DNA from: Candidatus Latescibacterota bacterium
GTDB taxonomy: Bacteria > Latescibacterota > UBA2968
Reading direction: 5' to 3'
DNA length: 64,000 bases
Assembly (NCBI GenBank): GCA_022823725.1
Contig: JAJEHL010000002.1
Coordinates: forward strand, 1 to 64,000
Shown one piece after another: positions 6,651 through 57,638 of the stretch. The position numbers and the translations under genes are program-made. The notes below the pieces were generated by a model. That model searched no databases, was not told the origin of the DNA, and saw only the letters and a list, made by a program, of their open reading frames with translations. Within the stretch, counting starts at the first letter, position 1, and the number at the start of each line of letters is the position of its first letter.

Positions 6651-9539
6651 TTAGAAGCTGAGCGCGAGTCCAAAGCGAACCTGCCGCGGCGTGCCAAAGT
6701 TGAACGGACTGTTCTCTTTGAGCTTGTATTTGTCTTCACCCAGTTGACCAAAGCGCTCCACAAATTTGCGGCCTTCGTCTGTATTCAACCAGCCTGAGGT
6801 CGTTGGGCTACCCGTGCTCGAATACACGGGACTGGTTGCGTTGGCGCGGTTGAACAAATTGAGCACCCACACATACAGGTCGCCCTGAAGCCCTATAATT
6901 CTGAAACGCTTATTCGCCTTCACATCGGTCCTGAATGTCCAGGGACCATAGCTGGAATTCACCGGTCCCGAAGGACGTGACGAAGACGCCCCTGTGGTCA
7001 CTTCATTAAACGTAAATGTGGGGGTATAGGGAAACCCACTCCCGGCAGTGAACAACACATTGATCCCGGCATTGGACAACGGTTGACCGCCCAGGAACCT
7101 CGGGCCATCTTTATCTACAAAGCGATAGTCGATCGATGCCGAAATTTTGTGGCGTTGATCAAAGTCGAGTGGTGAGGTCGATTTGGGCGGCTCGGTCACA
7201 CCGGGTTGGAATGTCCACGCGATCCGTCGCTGAGTTTGTGGCGATGATCCCGTGCCCGTCGCATAAGCCAGAGAATAAGACAGACGTACAGTTGTGCGTC
7301 CTGTACGCCGCATCAACAAACCAAAGTCCAGTCCCTTGATGGTTCCGTAGTCGCTGTTGCGGAACGAGGCAAAAGCCGCGGGATCAGACGGAATTGTCGT
7401 CACCTGGACGAGATTTTCCACGGCTTTGTAATAAGCAGTCACATCGACACTGGCATGACCGCCCACTTGCTGCACCACACCCACTTCGTAAGCCGTGGTT
7501 TTTTCCGGCCTGAGATTGGGATTGCCAAAGGCGAAATAATATCCCCCCAGTGGCGCTTTGTATTCCAGATAATCCAGACCCACATACAAGTCTTCCAGCT
7601 TGGGTTGCTGGTAAAAAATGCCGTAGTTCATGTGAAACACGGTCTTATCTGTAACCGGAAACCCAACACCCAGGCGCGGGCTGAGCTTGTGATACACGCT
7701 ATTGCCAGCCAGATCCGACGGATCCAGTGTGGAATCGCCACCCAGTGGCACGCCTTCATTCGCCAGCACATCGGTACTCGCATTCAAATAATCGTACCGA
7801 ACCCCCGCGTTGATAATCAACCCATCGTATTCCATCTTGTCCTGCACGTAAAAAGAAGCCAAAATAGGCTCTTTTAGCGCGTCTCGGGTCGAATCCAGAG
7901 GCTCAATTACCTGTTTATCCCAGTTGTAATTATACCCGTAGCGGTTCACATCCTGAAAGCCACCCCTGTCGTCTGGGCTGACAAACGGACCGCGAAAGAT
8001 CAAACTGGGGACCAGATGCCGGTAATAACGCAACCGATGCATCTGCACGTCAAAACCGAGCTTAAACTGGTGATTGCGGCTGATCTGGCTGGTCAAATCA
8101 AAGTCGATAGGCGTGAGATAAAATGAGCTACTTTGCTCAAAACTGTTATATATGCGCCCCTCATCGCCTTCAAAAAACGTTATAGATCGGTCATTGATGG
8201 TGTCCGTTGTCTGAGTAATCTCAGTGGAATCCACATCGCCGCGTGCAAACAAACTTTCCGCGTCATAAAGCGGATTGCCCTGGGGACGGGCATAGTCGTG
8301 CAAATTGTCGAAATGAACCCCGTCGCCCGCCTTAAAGTTCTGGTCGAACATACTCGTTTGCAAAGTGAAGAAGGTCTTTGCACCGAGCGTATAGGTCACG
8401 CGGGCAAATGCCGAGTTGTTATTTCTTTTTACACGCGGCGCGTGCCGCAAATTATAGCGATATGAGTGAAGATAGCTCAAGCGATCCGTTTTTGAGCCTA
8501 CTATCCCGGCTTTCAGATCGATTTCGTCGGACAACCGATACGAGAGCTTGGCCTGCCAGCCCCATCTTTCGAGCGTATAATGCGGCAATATGCCCTCGCT
8601 GAGCAGATCGTAATCTTCCTGTGGCAAAAGATCTTTTTCCCAATCGTGAACTTCCACCCCCCAGCGCGGACTGCGATCGAGGCGATCAATGCGTTCTCCA
8701 GAGACAAAAAACGAAGGTCCATTCGTCCCGGGAACGAGTGGACCACCAAATGTCGCATCGGTAGTGTTATACCCATAAGAGGGCGCACCGGCCCAACTGC
8801 GGTCATTCATTTCATCGGTGATATGTTCCACAGATCCCGAATAATTCTGTCCACCTTCGCGCGTCACCACCTTAACAACGCCCGACATCACGCGACCATA
8901 CTCTGCTTCAAACCCACCCACAATCACAGATACCTGATCGATAGCACCACTGCTCAGGGTCGTGGTCGATGAGCCGAACTGCAAATCCTTCTGCGATACG
9001 CCATCGACGATGTAGTCAACTTCTGAGAACCGCCCACCGCGTATATAAAGTGTGCCGTTTCGATTCGTCACACCCGCCTGCAAGGACGTGGCCGCTGCAT
9101 ACCCGCGAACCGGCATATACTCGAGTTCTTCGCTGGTTACGAGACGCATTGAAGCCGTCTTGTCTTTCTGTACCAGTGGGCGCACCGCCACCACTTCGAT
9201 AGTTTCGCCTTCCAGAGCTTGCTCTGTGAGCACAAAATCAACTTCGGTAGTCAAATCGGGCAACACCTTGATGCCTTTGAGCACCACATCACGATACCCG
9301 ATAAAACTGCATTTTACGTCATACGTGCCTGCCGGCACATTCAAAATCACAAAATTACCTTCGGGATCTGATGTCGCACCATAGACACTGTGCAGACCGA
9401 GAACCACCACATTGGCACCGGGCAAGCCACCACCATCGTCTTTGTCGGTAATCTGACCCGCAATTTTACCCGTCACCCCGGCCATCGCCGACGCGGATAA
9501 AAACGACATCGCAACAAGTGCGATTATCCATCTCGTCAT
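6651..9539 (-). CDS. TonB-dependent receptor with carboxypeptidase-like domain
   Basis: The 962-residue product has a signal peptide (MTRWIIALVAMSFLSASAMA). Next comes a carboxypeptidase-regulatory-like beta domain (about residues 24-105, with GKIAGQITDKDDGGGLPGAN), a plug domain containing LYIRGGRFSEVDYIVDGVS, and a long beta-barrel ending in RFGLALSF. The C-terminal aromatic residue is the usual barrel signature. This SusC-like architecture imports or docks large ligands at the outer membrane using TonB energy. No SusD-type lipoprotein follows; the next gene is a large secreted protein, then a PorV-like barrel. GGGAG lies seven bases before the ATG. The ligand cannot be told from sequence. 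Confidence 0.85.
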   Translation of the reverse strand: MTRWIIALVAMSFLSASAMAGVTGKIAGQITDKDDGGGLPGANVVVLGLHSVYGATSDPEGNFVILNVPAGTYDVKCSFIGYRDVVLKGIKVLPDLTTEVDFVLTEQALEGETIEVVAVRPLVQKDKTASMRLVTSEELEYMPVRGYAAATSLQAGVTNRNGTLYIRGGRFSEVDYIVDGVSQKDLQFGSSTTTLSSGAIDQVSVIVGGFEAEYGRVMSGVVKVVTREGGQNYSGSVEHITDEMNDRSWAGAPSYGYNTTDATFGGPLVPGTNGPSFFVSGERIDRLDRSPRWGVEVHDWEKDLLPQEDYDLLSEGILPHYTLERWGWQAKLSYRLSDEIDLKAGIVGSKTDRLSYLHSYRYNLRHAPRVKRNNNSAFARVTYTLGAKTFFTLQTSMFDQNFKAGDGVHFDNLHDYARPQGNPLYDAESLFARGDVDSTEITQTTDTINDRSITFFEGDEGRIYNSFEQSSSFYLTPIDFDLTSQISRNHQFKLGFDVQMHRLRYYRHLVPSLIFRGPFVSPDDRGGFQDVNRYGYNYNWDKQVIEPLDSTRDALKEPILASFYVQDKMEYDGLIINAGVRYDYLNASTDVLANEGVPLGGDSTLDPSDLAGNSVYHKLSPRLGVGFPVTDKTVFHMNYGIFYQQPKLEDLYVGLDYLEYKAPLGGYYFAFGNPNLRPEKTTAYEVGVVQQVGGHASVDVTAYYKAVENLVQVTTIPSDPAAFASFRNSDYGTIKGLDFGLLMRRTGRTTVRLSYSLAYATGTGSSPQTQRRIAWTFQPGVTEPPKSTSPLDFDQRHKISASIDYRFVDKDGPRFLGGQPLSNAGINVLFTAGSGFPYTPTFTFNEVTTGASSSRPSGPVNSSYGPWTFRTDVKANKRFRIIGLQGDLYVWVLNLFNRANATSPVYSSTGSPTTSGWLNTDEGRKFVERFGQLGEDKYKLKENSPFNFGTPRQVRFGLALSF

Positions 9540-13604: not shown

Positions 13605-14285
13605 TTACTCTTCTCCTGCGCGCAATTCCTCTTTTTGATGTCTCACAATACGCCCCTGAACGAGATAGACGACATTTTCGGCAATATTGGATGAATGATC
13701 GCCAATGCGCTCCAAATGTCGGGACACGAGAATGAGCAAAATAGCCTGATCCACAGTCGAAGACATACCCGTATTTAAGTACGTCAACAACTCGCGGAAA
13801 ATTTGATCGCGCAACGCATCCATTGTATCGTCAATTTTACGCACCTTATTGGCCAATTCCACATCGCGATTGACAAAAGCATCCAGAGCATCCCTGACCA
13901 TACCCCGTGCCAGCACGGCCATCCGCGGAATATCGATCAGCGGTTTCAATTGCGGCATCTGATTGAGCAAACGCGCGCGTTGCGCGATATTCACCGCCTG
14001 GTCATTGATGCGCTCGAGATCGTAATTGATCTTAATCATACTCGCCACCAGGCGCAAATCGCCAGCCACGGGTTGCTGCACAGCCAACACCTTCAAACAC
14101 TCTTCTTCTATCGCCACTTCCCAATCGTCAATGTTATGCCCACCTTCTTCGACCACATCGGCGAGGTGATTGTCGCGTTCTACAAGCGATTGTACTGCCT
14201 GTTCAATCGACTCTTCTACCGCACTACCCATCTTCAGTAATTCACCTTTGAGGTGGTCGAGATGCTGGTCGAGAGTACGCTCCAT
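13605..14285 (-). CDS. phoU: Phosphate-signalling protein PhoU
   Basis: The start is placed at 14285 (MERTLDQHLDHLKGELLKMG) with GGAG upstream, giving 226 residues, a normal PhoU length. The protein has two three-helix repeats with the PhoU metal-binding type motifs EEECLKVLAVQQPVAGDLR and SRHLERIGDHSSNIAENVVY. PhoU works with the Pst transporter to keep the phosphate sensor kinase off when phosphate is plentiful and limits uptake. It is the last gene of pstSCAB-phoU, sixteen bases after pstB. No PhoB or PhoR gene is in the window. Confidence 0.95.
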   Translation of the reverse strand: MERTLDQHLDHLKGELLKMGSAVEESIEQAVQSLVERDNHLADVVEEGGHNIDDWEVAIEEECLKVLAVQQPVAGDLRLVASMIKINYDLERINDQAVNIAQRARLLNQMPQLKPLIDIPRMAVLARGMVRDALDAFVNRDVELANKVRKIDDTMDALRDQIFRELLTYLNTGMSSTVDQAILLILVSRHLERIGDHSSNIAENVVYLVQGRIVRHQKEELRAGEE

Positions 14286-14301
14286 AATAATCACTCCGTT
14301 C

Positions 14302-15114
14302 TTAACCAAACCGTCCCGTCACGTAATCTTCGGTTTGTTTGAGCTGCGGATTGGTAAACATCTCGCTCGTTTCGGCCATCTCAATCAAACGTCCCAAATA
14401 GAAAAACGCCGTATAGTCCGAAATGCGCGACGCCTGCTGCATATTGTGTGTTACAATCACAATCGTATATTGTTTTTTCAGATCTTCAATCGTCTCTTCA
14501 ATACGCCCTGTCGCAATTGGATCCAGTGCCGAACAGGGTTCATCCATCAAGATCACCGAAGGCTCAACAGCAATTGCACGCGCAATACACAACCTCTGCT
14601 GCTGACCTCCTGAAAGCCCCAGGGCACTGTCATTGAGCCGGTCTTTTACCTCATCCCAAAGCGCGGCAGCCTGCAAACTGCGTTCCACCACCTCATCGAG
14701 CATCGCCCGCCGATTCTCACCTGCAATTCTCAAACCGTAAACGAGATTCTCATAAATCGACTTGGGAAAAGGATTGGATTTTTGAAACACCATCCCGACC
14801 TGACGGCGCAACGAAATCACATCGTATCCGGGACCGTAAATGTCGTCATTATCAATTTCAACCACACCCTCAATACGCACCGAATCGATCAAATCGTTTA
14901 GCCGATTCATGCACCGCAACAGCGTTGACTTCCCGCATCCCGAAGGACCTATAAGAGCCGTCACCCGATGCTCGGGAATCTGCATGTCAATGTCAAAAAG
15001 GGCCTGCGTCTCACCGTAATATAGATTCAGATTCGATACAGTGACAATGGGATTTTGAATATCCGGGACAATTGCTTCTAACTGTGTATTTACTGCAAGT
15101 TCTGCTTCAGCCAT
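14302..15114 (-). CDS. pstB: Phosphate ABC transporter ATPase PstB
   Basis: The 270-residue ABC ATPase has Walker [10 protein letters not shown], the PstB-typical stretch [19 protein letters not shown], signature [14 protein letters not shown], and Walker [14 protein letters not shown]. These match PstB closely. It powers uptake of inorganic phosphate through PstC and PstA in the inner membrane. It sits between pstA and phoU. The 133-base gap to pstA holds a stretch with TTCATCTG and TTCATCTGCG repeats of no clear function. A 20-25 residue N-terminal extension precedes the usual start of the fold. Confidence 0.95.
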
Positions 15115-48200: not shown

Positions 48201-48689
48201 TTAGAAGAAAATGATCAACAGAATAATACTGCTCAATCCACCAAGCAGAAATCCCACAGCACTGACAATACCGGCCGCCGTAGCGTAATCGGCGAGGCGA
48301 AAAGTCTGTTCTTCTACCGTAAACATCACCTGTGTTCGATCAATCTCGCCATCGACAAACCGTTTCAATGCATTCTCTGCACCGTGAGCCTCCTTTACCG
48401 AGACTACGGCGACCATGATCATAGCCATAGCTGATGCAAGCGTTCCCACCGCAAACATGAGCAACGTTAGCAAGGAAGCCCAGTGATAAGCGGGATCTTC
48501 ACCACCCGTGGATGCACTCATAAAACCGATAATCAACGCGGCACCACCTGCATTGCCAAACAACAACAGGCGTGCTGTCTCGGTAATCATCCTGAACATG
48601 GTACCGCGCCGCAAAGCAACAACCTTATAAAGCTCGCGCAACCACTCTTCGCCGATCTCTTCGACAGAAAATTCGTCTATATTCTTCAA
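48201..48689 (-). CDS. Small three-helix membrane protein
   Basis: TTG start at 48689 with AAGGAG seven bases before; it overlaps the TGA of the upstream binding-protein gene. 162 residues with a soluble N-terminal region (about 1-38) and three membrane helices (about 40-60, 69-97, 136-162). The charged loop between helix 2 and 3 contains VDGEIDRTQVMFTVEEQTF. I do not recognise it. Coupling with the binding protein suggests that it may be that protein's membrane partner. Confidence 0.6.
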   Translation of the reverse strand: MKNIDEFSVEEIGEEWLRELYKVVALRRGTMFRMITETARLLLFGNAGGAALIIGFMSASTGGEDPAYHWASLLTLLMFAVGTLASAMAMIMVAVVSVKEAHGAENALKRFVDGEIDRTQVMFTVEEQTFRLADYATAAGIVSAVGFLLGGLSSIILLIIFF

Positions 48690-49861
48690 GGATGATTCTC
48701 CTTTTCAGAATGATCGTCACCCAAATGGATCAACCTGATGTAGCTTGAACCCGCATTCTCACCGGATTTAAAATGAATGACCCAATCGCCAATCACGAAA
48801 GGCTTGGCTGGGGACATTGCATCTTTCAAGAACTGTTCTCGCGTCAACTCATTGCCCATACGATCCAACACAGCGATGAGATATCGGCCCAATATATAAC
48901 CCTCCAGACATACCTCATTAAATGGGTGCTGGTGGTCTTCCGATGACAATCTTATGGCTTGTTGAAACTGTCGCACAATCTGACTATCCAGATTTTGTGC
49001 GTCTGGCATCACCTCGGTCACCACGATCCTATCACTCGGCGAATGGATCCGCTTCTCCAACTCGCGGGATAAAACAAAGGACAGATTGGCTATGATGTAT
49101 TTATGTCCCAGAGAATTGGCCAGATTGATGATTTCCGCATTGGCGGCATAGGCTCCCACTATCAGAATGGCGTCCAGATCGGCTTTATCCAATGCGAACA
49201 GGCTCGCATGGACGGCATGTGTATTCCGCGAGTAGGAGGTCTTCGCCAGTATGGGAAGGTCGCGGCTATCGAGAATCTCCTTGTAGTTCCTCAAGACGGA
49301 ACGCCCGAACGCATCATCCTGATATATAATACCGAAACGACTTTTGCCGAGATCGTCAATCATGTGATGCACCAGTTCATAGATCTCGTCAAAGTAACCA
49401 GCTCTCAGATTGATGATGTGTGGATACTTTTTAGCCTCGCGCAAAAAGTCGGCCCCCGTAAACGGTCCCACAAAGGGAATCTGAGCCGTTCGCAGCACTG
49501 GAACAATGCGCTTGGCAGTCGGCGTTCCCACGCCACCGATGACGGCAAACATATTGTTTTCGGAAACGAATCTCTCTGCATTTGCGGCTGCCAGATCAGG
49601 CTCGTACGCGTCATCTAAAGAAATGAGCCTCAACAACCTGCCATACACTCCGCCACGATCATTCTGTTCCTGAAAAGCGGTCAAAATGCCGGCTCGATAC
49701 CACAAACCCAAATTTTTGTTCGGACCCGAGAAACAGGCGGTTTGTCCGAATACAATCGTACTATCAGTAACTCCCGGAGCCGCCGCCGAGGGCAGGGTGA
49801 GCACCAGCAGGATAAGACAGGAAGCTATGCCCGTCGATGTAAGCTTATTGAGCAGACTCAC
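48686..49861 (-). CDS. Orphan periplasmic binding protein (LivJ-type)
   Basis: GTG start at 49861 with AAGGAG eight bases upstream; 391 residues. A signal peptide (VSLLNKLTSTGIASCLILLV...) ends near SAAAP. The mature protein is a type I periplasmic binding fold: STIVFGQTACFSGPNKNLGL, FAVIGGVGTPTAKRIVPVLR, GIIYQDDAFGRSVLRNYKEI and AILIVGAYAANAEIINLAN. This is the Peripla_BP_6/LivJ family. No LivHMGF transporter genes are nearby; it sits between the HflK-like and a small membrane protein gene. It may be a sensor or adaptor rather than a transporter component. Overlap with HflK-like: 17 bases. Confidence 0.85.
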   Translation of the reverse strand: MSLLNKLTSTGIASCLILLVLTLPSAAAPGVTDSTIVFGQTACFSGPNKNLGLWYRAGILTAFQEQNDRGGVYGRLLRLISLDDAYEPDLAAANAERFVSENNMFAVIGGVGTPTAKRIVPVLRTAQIPFVGPFTGADFLREAKKYPHIINLRAGYFDEIYELVHHMIDDLGKSRFGIIYQDDAFGRSVLRNYKEILDSRDLPILAKTSYSRNTHAVHASLFALDKADLDAILIVGAYAANAEIINLANSLGHKYIIANLSFVLSRELEKRIHSPSDRIVVTEVMPDAQNLDSQIVRQFQQAIRLSSEDHQHPFNEVCLEGYILGRYLIAVLDRMGNELTREQFLKDAMSPAKPFVIGDWVIHFKSGENAGSSYIRLIHLGDDHSEKENHP

Positions 49862-51173
49862 TTTTTTTCTCCTTATCCACAGTTTTGCTGCTGTCCTGCC
49901 TGCTTTCAGCAGCTTTCGTCTCAATCACCGCCTGCTGGTCTGCCTGTCGCACGGTGGTCTGGGGATGGGTTGACGTGTGCTCATGAGAAAATACACTGGG
50001 CATGTCGAATATTAGTGATCTCATATTGGCGACCCTCTGGTGATGGCGTTCCACGCGTCTTTTGTGGAATTGCCCGTCCAGCAAGTGTTTGTCCTCACCG
50101 ACATTTTCAAAAGTATGTGTATCCTGCTGCCGCGCCGTTGAAAAAGAGGGCCTCTCGATAGACGGGCCGTCAACCGGAGACGCGTCCAGCAACATATCTA
50201 CGGGTGTATGCGCCGCGAGACCTTCTATCATATTGATATCGATTGTCGCCTCATTGCGGGGATTGACCGCCGACAGACTCGCTTCTGAGAAGATCGTGCG
50301 CATGCGCTGCCAGTACCGCGTGATAGCCACTTGCGTTCGTTGACTTTTGTACTCGGCGAGCAGAGCGAGGAATGCGTCGGCACTGCTTTGAGCCTGCACA
50401 ATGCGTTCCCCTGCCCTGGCACGGGCATCCATCACCACTGCCTCTGCCTGTCCCCTGCTGTGCGCGAGCATCTTCTCCCGGGTGCGGTTGGCATTGCTCT
50501 CTGCTTGCGCACGCTCGGCAATCGCATCGTTGACATCCCGGAATGCAGCAATCGTTTCTTCAATCGGGCTTATATCAACGATGTTGAGAGAAACGACCTC
50601 TACGCCAACATCGTATCCTTCAAGAAGATTGGTAATCTCGTGCAGCAGGTGGTGTTGAATGATATTGCGGTTGGAAGTCAGGATCAAATCAATAAAATTC
50701 TGCCCCATGATATTGATCAACTCTTCCCGCAAGAGCATAGAGACCACCTCAAGAGGATCGACAGTTGCATACAGAAAATTTCTCAGATTATCGATCCGGT
50801 ATTGAAGGGCGATATCCACCTCAAACAGATTCGTGTCCCCAGACAATATTGTAAAATTGGCTGTGCCGCCGCTCTTACTGGCTATCTGGTGCTGGACGAT
50901 CCGCTTGACCTTGCGAATCTGAACTTCGTCAATAACGGGGATGCAGTAGCGTATCCCGGGACCGATATTCATACTGACCACCCTGCCGAAACGCAGAACC
51001 ACAGCCTCTTCCTCTTTCTTTACGATATAGAACCCGCTACCCAACACCACAGCGAGGACAATCGCGACGAGCACCGTGATGATTCGCCTTTTGGGATACT
51101 GCCCAACGAAATCAAAAGCGGCGTAGATCATGCGCGTACTGCGCGGTAATGGTTGTTGTTCGTTCATCGTCAT
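49845..51173 (-). CDS. HflK-like SPFH (band 7) protein with long C-terminus
   Basis: The 442-residue protein has an N-terminal membrane helix (about 29-51) and an SPFH domain (about 52-290), with IALQYRIDNLRNFLYATVDP and LEGYDVGVEVVSLNIVDISP characteristic of HflK. The proline/His-rich C-terminal tail of about 130 residues (from RPSFSTARQQD) is unusual. HflK and HflC form a membrane cage around FtsH in E. coli. Here it follows an HflC-like gene and the SPFH-permease fusion. It overlaps the orphan binding-protein gene by 17 bases. The start may be the second Met (51167). Confidence 0.8.
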   Translation of the reverse strand: MTMNEQQPLPRSTRMIYAAFDFVGQYPKRRIITVLVAIVLAVVLGSGFYIVKKEEEAVVLRFGRVVSMNIGPGIRYCIPVIDEVQIRKVKRIVQHQIASKSGGTANFTILSGDTNLFEVDIALQYRIDNLRNFLYATVDPLEVVSMLLREELINIMGQNFIDLILTSNRNIIQHHLLHEITNLLEGYDVGVEVVSLNIVDISPIEETIAAFRDVNDAIAERAQAESNANRTREKMLAHSRGQAEAVVMDARARAGERIVQAQSSADAFLALLAEYKSQRTQVAITRYWQRMRTIFSEASLSAVNPRNEATIDINMIEGLAAHTPVDMLLDASPVDGPSIERPSFSTARQQDTHTFENVGEDKHLLDGQFHKRRVERHHQRVANMRSLIFDMPSVFSHEHTSTHPQTTVRQADQQAVIETKAAESRQDSSKTVDKEKKSESAQ

Positions 51174-51182
51174 AGCCCCATA

Positions 51183-52070
51183 TTACCTGGGTATAGATTT
51201 GCTGTCCAGATATTTGAATAATTCACTGTCTGCGGGCAGCATAAGCGTCGTATTTTTATCGATGATCAGATCGTAGCTGTCGAGTGCGCGGATAAACTTG
51301 TAAAACTCCGGATCTTCCCGATAGGCTTTGCCCAGCAATGCCATAGCCTGAGCCTCGGCATTGCCGAGAATAGTCGTTGCTTCCGCGTGGGCGTCAGCCA
51401 TAATTTTTTCGTGCTCATTGATGGCAAGCGCCTCGATGGTTATCGCCTTCTCTTCTCCCTCGCTGCGATAGCGGGTGGCAATGCGCGCACGCTCGGAAAT
51501 CATTCGCTGGATCACACTCGGCCGGTTCTCCACCGGCAAAGTGTATTCGACGATACCGACCCTTATCACCTCAATCCCATAGTTGGCTTTGGCAATCGGT
51601 GCGATCCTGTTGTGCATTTCGCGGCACGCCTCGTGCAGGTCTTCGTGCTCCAGCCCCAGACTGATAAACGCATCGCGTGCCCTATTGCTGATGACAATAC
51701 CGCTACTCGCAAAATAGAGTTCCCGCAAACGCTCAACGGCATTTACATCGGTTCGGATGGCTTCGACATACTTGATGGGATCACTGATACGCCACATCGT
51801 ATAACCGTCAACCAGGACATTCTTCTGGTCTTCCGTAATCAACTCGTGGGTAAGGCCATTGAGTATCTGGATGCGTCGCTCAACCTTGTATATCTTCGAT
51901 ATTGGCCACGGCCATTTGACATGCAACCCGGGTTCTTTGACGGGCGGCGCGATTTTGCCAAAGTTGGTCAACACGCCTTGTTGCGTTTCATGGATAGTGT
52001 AAAAACAGCTATACGCGATTAAACCAACAAAAACCACGACAATAGCTGTGACAATTCTTTTAAAAGTCAT
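51183..52070 (-). CDS. HflC-like SPFH (band 7) protein
   Basis: The 295-residue protein has a membrane helix near the N-terminus (residues 5-22) followed by an SPFH domain with GKIAPPVKEPGLHVKWPWPI. The C-terminal EDPEFYKFIRALDSYDLIID followed by NTTLMLPADSELFKYL is the HflC signature. GGGAG precedes the ATG. In E. coli the order is hflK-hflC; here HflC-like is first. It is encoded sixteen bases after the fusion gene and probably forms a hetero-oligomeric SPFH ring with the HflK-like protein. Confidence 0.85.
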   Translation of the reverse strand: MTFKRIVTAIVVVFVGLIAYSCFYTIHETQQGVLTNFGKIAPPVKEPGLHVKWPWPISKIYKVERRIQILNGLTHELITEDQKNVLVDGYTMWRISDPIKYVEAIRTDVNAVERLRELYFASSGIVISNRARDAFISLGLEHEDLHEACREMHNRIAPIAKANYGIEVIRVGIVEYTLPVENRPSVIQRMISERARIATRYRSEGEEKAITIEALAINEHEKIMADAHAEATTILGNAEAQAMALLGKAYREDPEFYKFIRALDSYDLIIDKNTTLMLPADSELFKYLDSKSIPR

Positions 52071-52085
52071 AATATTTTCTCCCTA

Positions 52086-54437
52086 TCAGTGCTGGGCGTT
52101 CGCGTTTGTCTTCGCCGACTTACTCTTCCACAGCGCGACCTTTTCGAGACTCCGCTTATTGGGAACGATAATTTTCGCATTGCCAGAAAGCGCGGTTTCC
52201 AGCTTCTCCCGCCATAACATGGTCTGGAGAACATTGGGCGCGCGATTCACTGCCCTGGCCACGACTTTTATCGCATCAGCTTCAGCGGCAGAAGTGGTCA
52301 CTTTTCTAAACGCTTCGCCACTCGCCTGTTCCACTTCGTAAATCGCATTTCCATGGGCACGGGGAACTAACGACGTCAGAAAACGCTGGGCATTGATGAT
52401 AATCCTCTCTCGATCTTCCTGAGAACTCGAGATTTCCCGAAAAGCACTCATTGTTTCCGCCGCCGGGTTAATACGCACCAGATTTACATCGATCAGTTCA
52501 ATACTCTCGAACACCGGGCGCGACGCCTCGACAGTACCCGCAAACAAATCTCTGACATGTTGCTCCAGACTTGCGCGATGAAAACTGAGCAGATGATCCA
52601 GATTGCGGGCGGATATGAACTCGCGCAGATGATCCTTGATGGCATCTTGAATGATCTGTTGCGGATTCTGGATCTGGTAATGATAAGTATAGGGATCCTT
52701 TACGCGATACTGCGTATTGATGGTGAGTGCGAGGATGTTCAAATCGCCCGAAATCAATTCGTACGGATTCGGGTTTGTGATGTACTTCACTTCTTTCACC
52801 GGCCATTTATCCACCTGCACAAAGGGACGGGGCGCGAGATAGGACAACCCCGGCTGCAGGTCTCGCCAATAGACCGCGCCGAACAAACGACCATAGCCCA
52901 CATGCCCGGGAGGAATCACTGTAAAACCGCTACCGAGGAACAGAGCGATCAACAGACCGTAGAACGCCTTTCCCAATGGCGTGGAGGGGGCAATAATGCC
53001 CACAAAAGAACGGTTGCGCGTCACGCGGCTCCAGAACTCTTTCCAGGGCCTGGACACAGGGCGAAGATTGAGCAATAAATCCTCGTAGCCGCTCTTAAAA
53101 GCACCTGCGCGGAACCGCCAGATAATCAGCGCGATCAGGGCAATAGCACTGCCCCATTGGATGAGTTGAATAGTCGTTGACTCCGAGGGACCGAGATACA
53201 GGGGAACCGTCACGCCAATAGCGATAAGCACAATATCGATTATAATGCCCAGAGCAACGGTAACAGCGATCACCGATGACACATAGATGGTTGCAAAGCG
53301 CGCTCCGAACTGACTGACGATAATCGCGATAGTACCCGTATTGGTCGCCGGTCCGGTCATAAGAAAAATCAGTGCCGCACCAGGGCTAAATCCCCTGGCG
53401 ACCAGCGCGGCAGCGATCGGAGTGCTCGCAGACGCGCAGATATAGAGAGGAACGCCAACCAGCACCATAACGGGATAGGACAACCAGCGCGCATACTCAT
53501 TTGACATCAAATCGCTCGGAATCACCAGGTAAAGCACGCCGCCCAGTGCGACGCCCACGAGCAACGCAAACAAAATATCGTCCGCTATCTCGACAAAGCC
53601 ATAGCGGAAAATATGCCTGACGATCTCCTTAAAATTCAAATCGTGTTTATATTTGGACGGGTCATCCTCAGAAGCTGTTTTATCCTCAGCCGGAAGCATG
53701 TCGCGATAAAAATCCGGTTTTACCCACGATCCGAATTTGTGCTGACTAACCACCTCGGTAAGCCCCTTCAACCAGGAATAAAACAACGCCTTCAACTGTG
53801 AGGGACTGACGTAGCAATCATCGCTCCCGGGCACCAGAGGTTCGTGTCCATGATCGTGATCGTGGCCGTGACTATGACCGTGCCCATGATCGTGGTCGTG
53901 ACTATGTCCATGGTCGTGATCATGGTCGTGGTCATGATCGTGGTCATGATCGTGCTCTCTCGCCCTGGCCTCGTCGCTATCATCTCGTATGAGACCGATG
54001 CAAAAAATACCGGCGACAACCGCGGTAATAAAACTGATAACGGGCCTGACAACAGCAGCGATAAATCCAAAAAACGCGTTCGTGACCAGAATTGAGTCCG
54101 CACCTGTTTCCGGTGCCGTAATCAAAAAAGACATACAGGAAGAACGGGACGCGCCCTTATTGCGCATCTCGGCAACTACTGGCACAACCGAGCAACTGCA
54201 AAGCGGCACGGGCACGCCGACAGCAGCACTTGTACTCACGGATTTCAAGCTATCTTCGCGCAACCACCGCAAAATGGCCTCACGCGAGATAAATACGTGA
54301 ATCAGACCAGAAAGAAACAGCCCCAGCATTAGCATTGGTGCTAACAACAGAAACGACATCAAGAGAAAGTCGAAGAAACTGGTCAATATTTGTATTAAGC
54401 CAATACTTGTATTAATTGGAGCATCAATAGCCCTCAC
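52086..54437 (-). CDS. Permease–SPFH fusion with His-rich loop
   Basis: GTG start (uncertain); 783 residues. Residues 1-460 are a membrane permease of the SO_0444/ArsP (DUF318) type, with VPVPLCSCSVVPVVAEMRNK (CSCS 80-83) and a second half with LYICASASTPIAAALVARGF and MTGPATNTGTIAI (360-372). A His/Asp-rich loop (162-198) lies between, as in metal carriers. After a new membrane helix (about 489-509), residues 510-745 form an SPFH (band 7) domain like HflK. The permease family moves metals, arsenic or Cu/Zn. The fusion with SPFH is unusual and its function is unknown. HflC-like and HflK-like genes follow at once. It has its own promoter at 54493-54521. Confidence 0.8.
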   Translation of the reverse strand: MRAIDAPINTSIGLIQILTSFFDFLLMSFLLLAPMLMLGLFLSGLIHVFISREAILRWLREDSLKSVSTSAAVGVPVPLCSCSVVPVVAEMRNKGASRSSCMSFLITAPETGADSILVTNAFFGFIAAVVRPVISFITAVVAGIFCIGLIRDDSDEARAREHDHDHDHDHDHDHDHGHSHDHDHGHGHSHGHDHDHGHEPLVPGSDDCYVSPSQLKALFYSWLKGLTEVVSQHKFGSWVKPDFYRDMLPAEDKTASEDDPSKYKHDLNFKEIVRHIFRYGFVEIADDILFALLVGVALGGVLYLVIPSDLMSNEYARWLSYPVMVLVGVPLYICASASTPIAAALVARGFSPGAALIFLMTGPATNTGTIAIIVSQFGARFATIYVSSVIAVTVALGIIIDIVLIAIGVTVPLYLGPSESTTIQLIQWGSAIALIALIIWRFRAGAFKSGYEDLLLNLRPVSRPWKEFWSRVTRNRSFVGIIAPSTPLGKAFYGLLIALFLGSGFTVIPPGHVGYGRLFGAVYWRDLQPGLSYLAPRPFVQVDKWPVKEVKYITNPNPYELISGDLNILALTINTQYRVKDPYTYHYQIQNPQQIIQDAIKDHLREFISARNLDHLLSFHRASLEQHVRDLFAGTVEASRPVFESIELIDVNLVRINPAAETMSAFREISSSQEDRERIIINAQRFLTSLVPRAHGNAIYEVEQASGEAFRKVTTSAAEADAIKVVARAVNRAPNVLQTMLWREKLETALSGNAKIIVPNKRSLEKVALWKSKSAKTNANAQH
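53844..53954. repeat. Tandem CAT/GAT codon repeat (His-Asp loop)
   Basis: This low-complexity stretch encodes the HDHDHDH...GHSHGH loop of the fusion protein. The DNA repeats with a six-base period (GTGATC/GTCATG). It is a slippage-prone coding repeat, not a CRISPR array. Confidence 0.9.
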
Positions 54438-54492: not shown

Positions 54493-54521
54493 ATTATAAC
54501 GTAATATCTCCTGCGCTGCAA
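54493..54521 (-). promoter_or_regulatory. Promoter of the SPFH-permease gene
   Basis: On the minus strand TTGCAG (54516-54521) and TATAAT (54493-54498) are 17 bases apart. The -10 is perfect and the -35 weak. An imperfect dyad CGTTAGATAAT / ATTATAACG (54473-54501) overlaps the -10 and could be an operator. Confidence 0.55.
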
Positions 54522-54548: not shown

Positions 54549-57500
54549 TTATGGCCGTCGCGTTTCAATCCACTCGTATATTACTGGCAGCAACACGAGT
54601 GTCAGCAAAGTCGAAGTGATCAACCCACCGACCACCACTGAAGCGAGCGGACGCTGCGTTTCGGCACCAACACCCGTCGCCAACAACAAGGGCACCAATC
54701 CGAGAATGGACGTACTCGCAGTCATCAAAACGGGACGCAAACGCAACTCCGCCCCTCGTCGCACTGCCTCTGCGACACCGAGTCCTTTTCCGCGCAACTC
54801 ATTGATAAAACTCACCAGCACAATGCCATTCAGCATCGCCACGCCAAACACCGCAATAAATCCAATCGCCGAAGGCACTGACACGTATTGTCCACTAAAG
54901 AAAAGGACCACCATCCCTCCAATTGCTGCAAACGGCACATTGGCGATAATCAGCGTGGCGTACTTAACCGAGTTGAATGCGGTATAGAGCAGCACAAAAA
55001 TGAAAAAAATCGTCAATGGCACAATCACCGACAAACGCGCCAACGCCCGCTGTTGATTCTCAAACGCACCACCCCACTCAATCCAATAGCCCGGAGGCAA
55101 GTCAATCTGCGCATCGATAGCCGCATTGGCATCGCGCACAAAGCCATCGACATCGCGCCCCCGCACATCCATCTGGATCACTGCGTAACGCTGCAATTGC
55201 TCGCGACGCACAAAAGAATAGCCTTCCGCAACACTGACATCTGCAACAGTCGCAAGAGGAACGATCGCACCATCGCTTGTTTTCAATGGAATGCGCTGAA
55301 TCGACTGCACCGACGCCTTTGATCGATCATCAAATCGCGCCGTAATATCGAATCGACGCACACCGTCAATCATAGTCGTAACCGGCTCATTGCCGATACC
55401 GGTGCGGACAACGGACAACACATCGTCCGCATTCACCCCAAACCGGGCGAGTTGATCGCGTTTGACCTGAATGCGGATCTGCGGCTTGCCGACATTGGCC
55501 TCAATCGAGAGATCCGCCACACCCTCAACTTCGGCAATGACATCTTTCACCGCCTCGCTCAACTGATCGAGCACTGCCAGATCCTCACCGTAAATCTTGG
55601 CGGCAAGCGTGGCGCGAACCCCCGAAATCAGTTCCTCTACGCGCATCTGAATCGGCTGGGTAAAAGCGACAACAGCCGACGGCACCACCACTTCCAACTC
55701 CTCGCGCATGGCCTCGGCAAGGGCCTGGATATCGCGGTCTCCGGGCCATTCGCTCTCGGGCTTGAGCGCCGTATAAATCTCCATATAATTGGCGTCGGCG
55801 GTCTCGCCTTTCTCGGCACGCCCGATCATTGCCACCGTAGTTTCAACCTCCGGGAATTGCGACAGCGCGTTCTCGATATCCTTGGAAATCTCAATCGAAT
55901 GCTGAAGCGAAGCCGAAGGTATCGAAGTCACGCGCCACATGATTGACCCTTCTTGCAGTTGCGGCATGAACTCTTTACCCAGAAACGGGAACAGCGACAT
56001 GCTCGCAACGAGCAAACCCACGGCACAGCCAACTACCACTTTTTTATTTTTCAGAGACCAAGAAAGCAAGGATAGATATCGCGGTTTAATGACGCGTACG
56101 AGCCATGTTTCGCGTTCTCTTTGCGGTTTTAATAACAAAGCCGCGAGCACGGGAATCAGGGTCAGCGCGAGCAATAAACTGCCACCCATAGCAAACGTGA
56201 TATTGAACGCCATCGGCTTGAACAGTTTGCCCTCCAGTCCCTCGAGCGCAAACAAAGGCAGAAATACCACCACAATAATCAAGATGGCAAAAGTCATCGG
56301 ATTCACGACTTCGCGGGCAGCAGCCAATACCGCATCCGTGCGGTTGACCCTCTCCGTCTCTGCCCTGCGTTCTGCCATAACGCGAAATGAATTCTCCACG
56401 ACGACCACTGCACCATCGACAATCATGCCAATACCAATGGCGAGACCGGCAAGTGACATGAGATTGGCCGAAAGGCCCGCTTCATCCATGAACACAAATG
56501 CAATGAGCATCGTGAGCGGAATAGAGACAATCACAACCACTGCGGGTCGCCATTCGCCGAGAAACAAAAACAGAATAACACCCACCAGAAGCGCGCCTTG
56601 AAATAGTGCATTCGTAGCCGTACCCACTGCTTTTTCAACGAGATCGGTACGCTCATAAATGGGGCGCAGAACGACGCCATCTGGCAGCGACTGATCGATA
56701 ATGGCGACCTTTTCCTTCGTCGCTTCAACCACCCGGGCGGCATTCTCACCGATGCGCGAGAGCACCATCCCGAGGACGACTTCCTTGCCATCGCGTGTCA
56801 CAGCACCAAAACGAAGTGCGCCTCCCTGGCGGATATCGGCGATATCCCGCAAATATACCGGCGCACCGCCTTCGACCTTAACCACCATATCGCCGATGTC
56901 GCGCTCGTTTCTAACCAGACCCAGACCGCGCACGAGGTACTGCTCTGAGCCGAGATTGATGTACTGACCGCCAACCTGGCGGTTGTTGGCCTCGATCACT
57001 TCCATGACATCGGTGAAGGTCAGGTCGTATTTGATGAGACTCAGAGGATCTATTACAACCTGAAATTGCCGCTCCTGTCCCCCCCATGAAATGACATCAT
57101 CAACGCCGGAAGCTGTTCGCAAGATCAAACGCACGTTCCAGTCGTGCAACGTCCGCAAATCCATATCGGTAATCGCCGCATTGAGCTTCTCATCCGCCCG
57201 TTCCAATGTGTACCAGAAAACCTGGCCGAGTCCGGACGAGTTGGGACCCATCTCGGGCGTGCCATAACCTTCTGGGATGCGCTCCCCTACCTCCTGCAAC
57301 CGCTCCATCACGAGACGTCGCGCGAAGTAGATATCCATATCGTCTTCAAAATAGACCGCGACATAGGATAAACCGAAGAGACTTACCGAGCGAATCTCCT
57401 TTACCTTCGGCAACCCGGCCATACTGGACTCGATGGGAAAAGTGAGAAGTTGCTCCACATCTTCAGCGGCAAGCCCGGGAGACTCGGTATAGATATTGAC

Positions 57501-57638
57501 CTGAGTGGGCGTCACATCTGGAAATGCATCGATCGGCACGGTTACAACCGCGCGCCAACCCAAAAAAGCCACGATGCCAAAGGCAATCAACACCAGGAAT
57601 TTATAGCGCAGAGAAGTATTTACCAATGCTTCCAACAT
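54549..57638 (-). CDS. Heavy-metal RND efflux pump, CusA/CzcA type
   Basis: The 1029-residue inner-membrane pump has the HME-RND opening PIDAFPDVTPTQVNIYTESP and FEDDMDIYFARRLVMERLQE. The proton-relay Asp lies in TM4 as AIGIGMIVDGAVVVVEN (D408). Two large periplasmic loops follow TM1 and TM7. CusA/CzcA pumps export Cu/Ag or Zn/Co/Cd; the TM4 sequence is closer to DGAVV of CzcA-type than to the CusA MVDAAI form, but this is not decisive. AGGAG lies before the ATG. It follows the adaptor gene by nine bases and is the last gene of the cusCBA-type operon. Confidence 0.92.
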   Translation of the reverse strand: MLEALVNTSLRYKFLVLIAFGIVAFLGWRAVVTVPIDAFPDVTPTQVNIYTESPGLAAEDVEQLLTFPIESSMAGLPKVKEIRSVSLFGLSYVAVYFEDDMDIYFARRLVMERLQEVGERIPEGYGTPEMGPNSSGLGQVFWYTLERADEKLNAAITDMDLRTLHDWNVRLILRTASGVDDVISWGGQERQFQVVIDPLSLIKYDLTFTDVMEVIEANNRQVGGQYINLGSEQYLVRGLGLVRNERDIGDMVVKVEGGAPVYLRDIADIRQGGALRFGAVTRDGKEVVLGMVLSRIGENAARVVEATKEKVAIIDQSLPDGVVLRPIYERTDLVEKAVGTATNALFQGALLVGVILFLFLGEWRPAVVVIVSIPLTMLIAFVFMDEAGLSANLMSLAGLAIGIGMIVDGAVVVVENSFRVMAERRAETERVNRTDAVLAAAREVVNPMTFAILIIVVVFLPLFALEGLEGKLFKPMAFNITFAMGGSLLLALTLIPVLAALLLKPQRERETWLVRVIKPRYLSLLSWSLKNKKVVVGCAVGLLVASMSLFPFLGKEFMPQLQEGSIMWRVTSIPSASLQHSIEISKDIENALSQFPEVETTVAMIGRAEKGETADANYMEIYTALKPESEWPGDRDIQALAEAMREELEVVVPSAVVAFTQPIQMRVEELISGVRATLAAKIYGEDLAVLDQLSEAVKDVIAEVEGVADLSIEANVGKPQIRIQVKRDQLARFGVNADDVLSVVRTGIGNEPVTTMIDGVRRFDITARFDDRSKASVQSIQRIPLKTSDGAIVPLATVADVSVAEGYSFVRREQLQRYAVIQMDVRGRDVDGFVRDANAAIDAQIDLPPGYWIEWGGAFENQQRALARLSVIVPLTIFFIFVLLYTAFNSVKYATLIIANVPFAAIGGMVVLFFSGQYVSVPSAIGFIAVFGVAMLNGIVLVSFINELRGKGLGVAEAVRRGAELRLRPVLMTASTSILGLVPLLLATGVGAETQRPLASVVVGGLITSTLLTLVLLPVIYEWIETRRP

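Follow-up and report, generated by a model that had tools for sequence, protein, structure and literature searches.

Introduction

SPFH rings occur in all domains of life, and the function of most of them is not established. In the HflK/HflC complex of E. coli, K- and C-type subunits alternate in a periplasmic cage. This cage (structures 7vhp, 7wi3, and 9cz1) encloses FtsH and controls the degradation of membrane proteins (PMC12048511).

An SPFH triplet is also found in the zinc regulon of Pseudomonas aeruginosa. The PA2439-PA2438-PA2437 (paFlo5-6-7) genes lie with the gene for the HmtA importer, and a znuA mutant expresses them at levels 9-14 fold higher (PMC4542158). Zinc-depleted cells contain more of the encoded proteins, a rise that the authors call significant for PA2438 and PA2439 (PMC11761036). 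The PA2439 promoter is bound by Zur (PMC8531726). The parts of a 2026 survey of P. aeruginosa SPFH genes used here record the triplet as an operon, without a metal role, and report mild phenotypes of single SPFH-gene deletions (PMC13086221).

Among metal permeases, SO_0444 (NF033936) of Shewanella oneidensis is required for growth under Zn or Cu stress, and the evidence for Cu/Zn efflux by this gene comes only from the fitness of mutants and their complementation (PMC3219624). No SPFH half or SPFH operon has been described for SO_0444, and we found no description of an SPFH-transporter fusion in the open literature, to which the search was confined.

Results

A single reading frame joins an SO_0444-family permease to an HflK-like half

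We analyzed a window of 64,000 nucleotides from a Candidatus Latescibacterota bacterium (GCA_022823725.1, contig JAJEHL010000002.1, positions 1 to 64,000). An earlier note, made from the sequence alone, had described a 783-residue reading frame in which a metal/metalloid permease with a CSCS motif and a His/Asp-rich loop is joined to a full SPFH domain. The frame lies at 52086..54437, as the note had placed it, on the minus strand, which also carries every other window feature given below. It has 783 codons and a GTG start preceded by GGAGGAG. A promoter-like TTGCAG-N17-TATAAT just upstream of the fusion (54493..54521) is mostly kept within the genus.

The permease half (residues 19-440; 53118..54383) matches Pfam ArsP_1 at residues 19-401 (E 4.6e-45) and scores 325.6 bits on NCBIfam NF033936 (SO_0444 Cu/Zn efflux transporter), which exceeds the curated cut-off of 300 bits. 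It retains the CSCS and GPATNT motifs of SO_0444. The CSCS motif, at residues 80-83 (54189..54200) as reported, is unchanged across seven aligned homologues. The His/Asp-rich loop, previously given as residues 162-198, spans about residues 161-199 (53841..53957) in the homologue alignment. It is present in all six aligned fusions and distinguishes them from SO_0444 and from a stand-alone gammaproteobacterial homologue (L006), which lacks it. Identity as an ArsP organoarsenical permease is not supported, since the best curated match is SO_0444 and the neighborhood is not one of arsenic genes: no ArsP-named NCBIfam model was among the matches to the permease half, and no ars genes were recognized among the neighbors of the fusion loci. 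The neighborhood points to zinc rather than arsenic.

The second half (residues 487-783; 52089..52979) was delimited by a Band_7 match at residues 507-684 (E 2.4e-16) and by alignment of residues 496-761 with residues 88-346 of E. coli HflK (E 2.8e-19; only 24% identity). The resemblance runs from the transmembrane helix, placed by hydropathy at residues 491-509 (52911..52967) at the start of this half, through the SPFH domain into the coiled-coil region. In place of the permease, the E. coli protein carries a short cytoplasmic tail. The linker before the helix (residues 440-490) is rich in K/R (10 K/R versus 3 D/E), which implies, from hydropathy and charge only, that the linker probably faces the cytoplasm and the SPFH half the periplasm. 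An AlphaFold model of the fusion, built from a seven-row alignment, has a mean pLDDT of 33, too low for use.

The fusion is present in 20 genomes of two phyla

The earlier note had reserved the possibility that two genes were wrongly joined by a sequencing or assembly error, or that no second genome would carry the fusion. We found the fusion in 20 of the 82 genomes searched, comprising 15 of 64 Latescibacterota and 5 of 18 genomes in a second phylum (that of L005). One copy counted among the 15, in G032, ends at a contig edge. The fusions are full-length matches that share 92-96% identity between sister species, about 72% with other families, and 66% with the second phylum. No internal stop codon or frameshift was present in the fusion copies of the 20 genomes, the G032 copy being read up to the contig end. 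Synonymous differences exceeded non-synonymous ones in the permease (62 versus 13, against the same-genus copy L052) and in the linker (19 versus 2 among same-genus copies), with a weaker excess in the SPFH half (31 versus 21, likewise among same-genus copies).

The one point in favor of an artefact is that stand-alone permeases of about 410 aa occupy the same locus in sister genomes. Against it stand the occurrence in 20 genomes of two phyla, one of them the one-contig genome G037, and the predominance of synonymous differences across the junction. An assembly or sequencing error is thereby refuted, and the fusion is real.

The fusion heads a conserved five-gene block

The note had pointed to HflC- and HflK-like genes directly after the fusion and to a possible conserved permease-SPFH-HflC-HflK order. 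Both genes are there, at gaps of 15 bp and 9 bp, and the order is the same in both phyla wherever contigs are long enough. The conserved unit is larger than proposed, with five genes rather than three: the fusion, HflC, HflK, Peripla_BP_6, and P0005, in which the 15- and 9-bp gaps are followed by overlaps.

The HflC-like gene P0002 (295 aa; 51183..52070) passes the equivalog cut-off of TIGR01932 (175.5 versus 134.4 bits). The HflK-like gene P0003 (442 aa; 49845..51173) has a Band_7 match (8.7e-17) and a C-terminal extension past the HflK match. It falls just under the equivalog cut-off of TIGR01933 (148.0 versus 159.4 bits), and the fused half scores 126.3 bits on the same model. By these scores, both P0003 and the fused half are classed as HflK-like and not as HflK equivalogs. 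The Peripla_BP_6 gene (48686..49861; Pfam 8.5e-44) starts at a GTG at 49861 with AAGGAG upstream, overlaps the end of the HflK-like gene, and encodes a binding protein with a probable signal peptide. In one second-phylum copy (L005, 11611-12927), the HflK-like gene is interrupted by a stop codon; the gene is intact in the relatives L116-L119.

P0005 (48201..48689) encodes a 162-aa membrane protein with three long helices and has no Pfam or NCBIfam match. All 20 fusion genomes have it, and the other 62 all lack it (Fisher p 1.6e-19, in a test that ignores the relatedness of the genomes). No homologue was found in 399 Pseudomonadota, in 141 genomes of the phylum of L012, or on plasmids, which is weak evidence of absence. 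A structure model (pLDDT 73) gave no significant match in the PDB, where the best hits, at E 0.19 and above, were helical-bundle lookalikes. A PADLOC match of P0005 to a restriction enzyme (E 5e-4) covers only 44 residues and was taken as chance.

In G034 and G029, which belong to the genus of the window, the locus consists of a permease gene (416 aa), ZIP, and Gfo/Idh, and the SPFH half is absent together with the four genes that follow it. This joint absence implies that the SPFH block behaves as a single module, either complete or entirely missing. The permease and ZIP genes stay paired with or without it. At least two gains or losses of the block are needed on the permease tree, which is poorly resolved at depth.

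The block encodes two K-type proteins and one C-type protein

At these loci, the fused halves, C-type proteins, and free K-type proteins each formed a single clade in a phylogeny of 73 SPFH domains (support 100/100, 100/100, and 100/99, respectively). Both K types fell on the K side of the tree and the C type on the C side; moreover, the fused half scores 224-268 against K-type proteins, versus 62-125 against C-type proteins. The block thus encodes two K-type subunits per C-type subunit, unlike E. coli HflK/HflC, although the two systems share the pairing of HflC-type with HflK-type partners. The ordinary HflC of the window's genome falls outside the P0002 clade. An ordinary hflK-hflC pair is also present elsewhere in every fusion genome examined in detail, and FtsH is present in these genomes.

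Neighboring genes point to zinc

The gene after the block in the window, P0006 (47198..48061; Pfam Zip 1.4e-22), encodes a ZIP metal transporter, and ZIP lies beside the fusion in all Latescibacterota copies. Upstream of the fusion is a CusA/CzcA-family RND metal efflux pump gene (54549..57638; TIGR00914, 1067.5 bits). This pump is a variable neighbor outside the conserved block and is absent beside the fusion in L054, L055, L057, L058, and L116-L119. In the second phylum, the fusion adjoins ZnuA, with a divergent Zur-like regulator, ZnuC, and ZnuB. The closest curated model for the regulator is Zur, at 120 bits and under the cut-off of 167. The interval between the regulator and ZnuA contains Zur-box-like sites, and the fusions there have their own promoter, in which no clear Zur box was seen. 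The fusion promoter of the window gave no convincing Zur box; a palindrome-like stretch considered as a candidate there looks more like a -10 element.

Just one ZnuA-family gene was detected in the genome of the window (L154, G000:C14:83500-93500). It is grouped, as judged by eye, with genes for ABC transporters, a FeoB-like protein, and a regulator resembling MntR, suggesting manganese or iron rather than zinc. Consequently, the zinc link in this genome rests on the neighbors of the fusion. We conclude that zinc is the most likely metal for the permease. The direction of transport is another matter. The gene context does not establish the earlier suggestion that the ring controls metal export, because the neighbors mix uptake (ZIP, ZnuCBA) with efflux (CusCBA, CDF), and with both kinds near fusion copies the direction cannot be read from context.

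Stand-alone permeases in G049 adjoin CobW, ZIP, and CDF genes. At one locus (L063), two stand-alone SO_0444-type permeases (7913-9322 and 13797-15041) face in opposite directions about 5 kb from each other; CobW and ZIP adjoin one of them, CDF and ZIP the other. In other Latescibacterota, a ZIP-like domain precedes ArsP_1 in one frame (L045 319-2256, L048 1321-3159, and L049 1237-3228); the Zip scores are under the Pfam gathering score in all three, just below it in one, so that we speak of resemblance to ZIP.

Discussion

The permease family, the SPFH type, and the theme of SPFH triplets beside zinc transporters are already known. What is new is the covalent permease-SPFH form and the conserved five-gene module with its one orphan family, P0005. 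A cage around a metal transporter is a use of SPFH rings absent from the literature searched. A transporter of known type joined to a ring subunit provides a direct test of whether SPFH rings enclose and control transporters.

We propose that the metal permease is a built-in part of a dedicated HflK/HflC-type ring that acts as a zinc/copper homeostasis complex, a reading of the sequences to which we give roughly even chances. What the sequences show is a covalent link between an SO_0444-family permease and an HflK-type subunit, together with co-inheritance of an HflC-type subunit, a permease-free HflK-type subunit, a periplasmic binding protein, and P0005. Since the joined gene constantly occurs with the same four partners, the cell probably builds a cage around a metal transporter. 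The in-frame HflK-type half, conserved with the HflC and HflK genes, likewise makes the placement of the permease within an SPFH ring, suggested in the earlier note, a fair reading. K-type subunits would alternate with C-type subunits in a periplasmic cage, as in E. coli HflK/C, and each K position would be taken by the fused or the free K protein, so that the bulky permease would stand at only some positions. The permeases would then be clustered in one membrane patch beneath the cage, and the binding protein and ZIP would act next to them. Metal transport may be channelled or buffered locally under the cage, which may also control the access of FtsH to the permease. Points against the proposal are the Peripla_BP_6 protein, whose family is known mainly for ligands such as amino acids, the lack of a convincing Zur box at the window's fusion promoter, the setting of the ZnuA-family gene in that genome, and the mixture of uptake and efflux neighbors.

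Several other roles of the ring have to be weighed. The ring and binding protein could gather zinc (or copper) under starvation and deliver it for import through the permease and ZIP, which we rate as possible but well short of probable. The constant ZIP neighbor in Latescibacterota and the adjoining Zur-ZnuCBA genes in the second phylum are consistent with import, as is the P. aeruginosa triplet, which lies beside the HmtA importer gene and is derepressed in zinc depletion (PMC4542158, PMC8531726). By contrast, what is known of the permease family comes from a metal-sensitive mutant, a phenotype that implies efflux (PMC3219624); moreover, CusCBA or CDF genes adjoin several copies, and the separate promoter of the second-phylum fusions lacks a clear Zur box.

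A role in turnover, where the ring would show the permease to FtsH or hide it so that permease amount tracks metal supply, would make degradation rather than transport the regulated step. The control of membrane-protein degradation by the FtsH-enclosing E. coli HflK/C (PMC12048511) is a precedent, and FtsH is encoded in these genomes. Yet the conserved block contains no protease gene, an ordinary hflK-hflC pair exists elsewhere, and a protein fused to the cage is permanently present, which is odd for a substrate; we consider this role unlikely. We think it quite improbable that the SPFH half is a membrane scaffold only, anchoring the permease in an ordered patch with neither a metal chamber nor a part for FtsH. 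Such a general role has been proposed for SPFH proteins and agrees with the mild single-deletion phenotypes in the consulted part of the P. aeruginosa survey (PMC13086221), but it leaves unexplained the constant retention of K- and C-type SPFH genes, the binding protein, and P0005.

If the ring does contain the permease as we propose, the block offers a reason for the so far unexplained SPFH triplet in the P. aeruginosa zinc regulon. Both loci hold three SPFH genes in one operon that adjoins a zinc/copper transporter gene. In P. aeruginosa, compared here by its published description rather than by sequence, the transporter is a separate P-type ATPase, whereas in the window it is fused. This Zur-regulated triplet beside a metal P-type ATPase (PMC4542158, PMC8531726) qualifies the remark in the earlier note that SPFH proteins are not usually fused to transporters. 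More tentatively still, transporter-bearing SPFH rings might form a general class, in which an SO_0444 permease, a CDF protein, or the separate P-type ATPase of P. aeruginosa is brought, through fusion or a shared operon, into dedicated HflK/C-type cages of two K types and one C type. Each cage would form a closed periplasmic chamber that holds metal and hands it from one transporter to another, a generalization about which we have considerable doubt.

The same remark is further qualified by a second transporter-HflK fusion, on a plasmid of Aquibium oceanicum (NZ_CP018172.1). A gene annotated 'hflK' there (L070, 6353-7900) encodes a CDF domain (Cation_efflux, residues 8-198) and an HflK half. 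The operon comprises this CDF-HflK fusion, HflC, HflK, PPIase, and a ZntA-like heavy-metal P-type ATPase. As in the window, a metal transporter-HflK fusion comes first, then HflC, then HflK, but CDF replaces the SO_0444 permease, and the binding protein, P0005, and ZIP are missing. Among the matches listed from 349 Pseudomonadota genomes, only ordinary HflK was seen and no CDF-HflK fusion; in a search of 399 genomes for close relatives of the Aquibium HflC, ordinary HflC swamped any triplet. A test of independent origin of the fused K halves of the window and Aquibium gave an AU p of 0.37. In the SPFH tree, the Aquibium HflC joins the C-type clade of the window as its nearest relative (support 97/85), on long branches.
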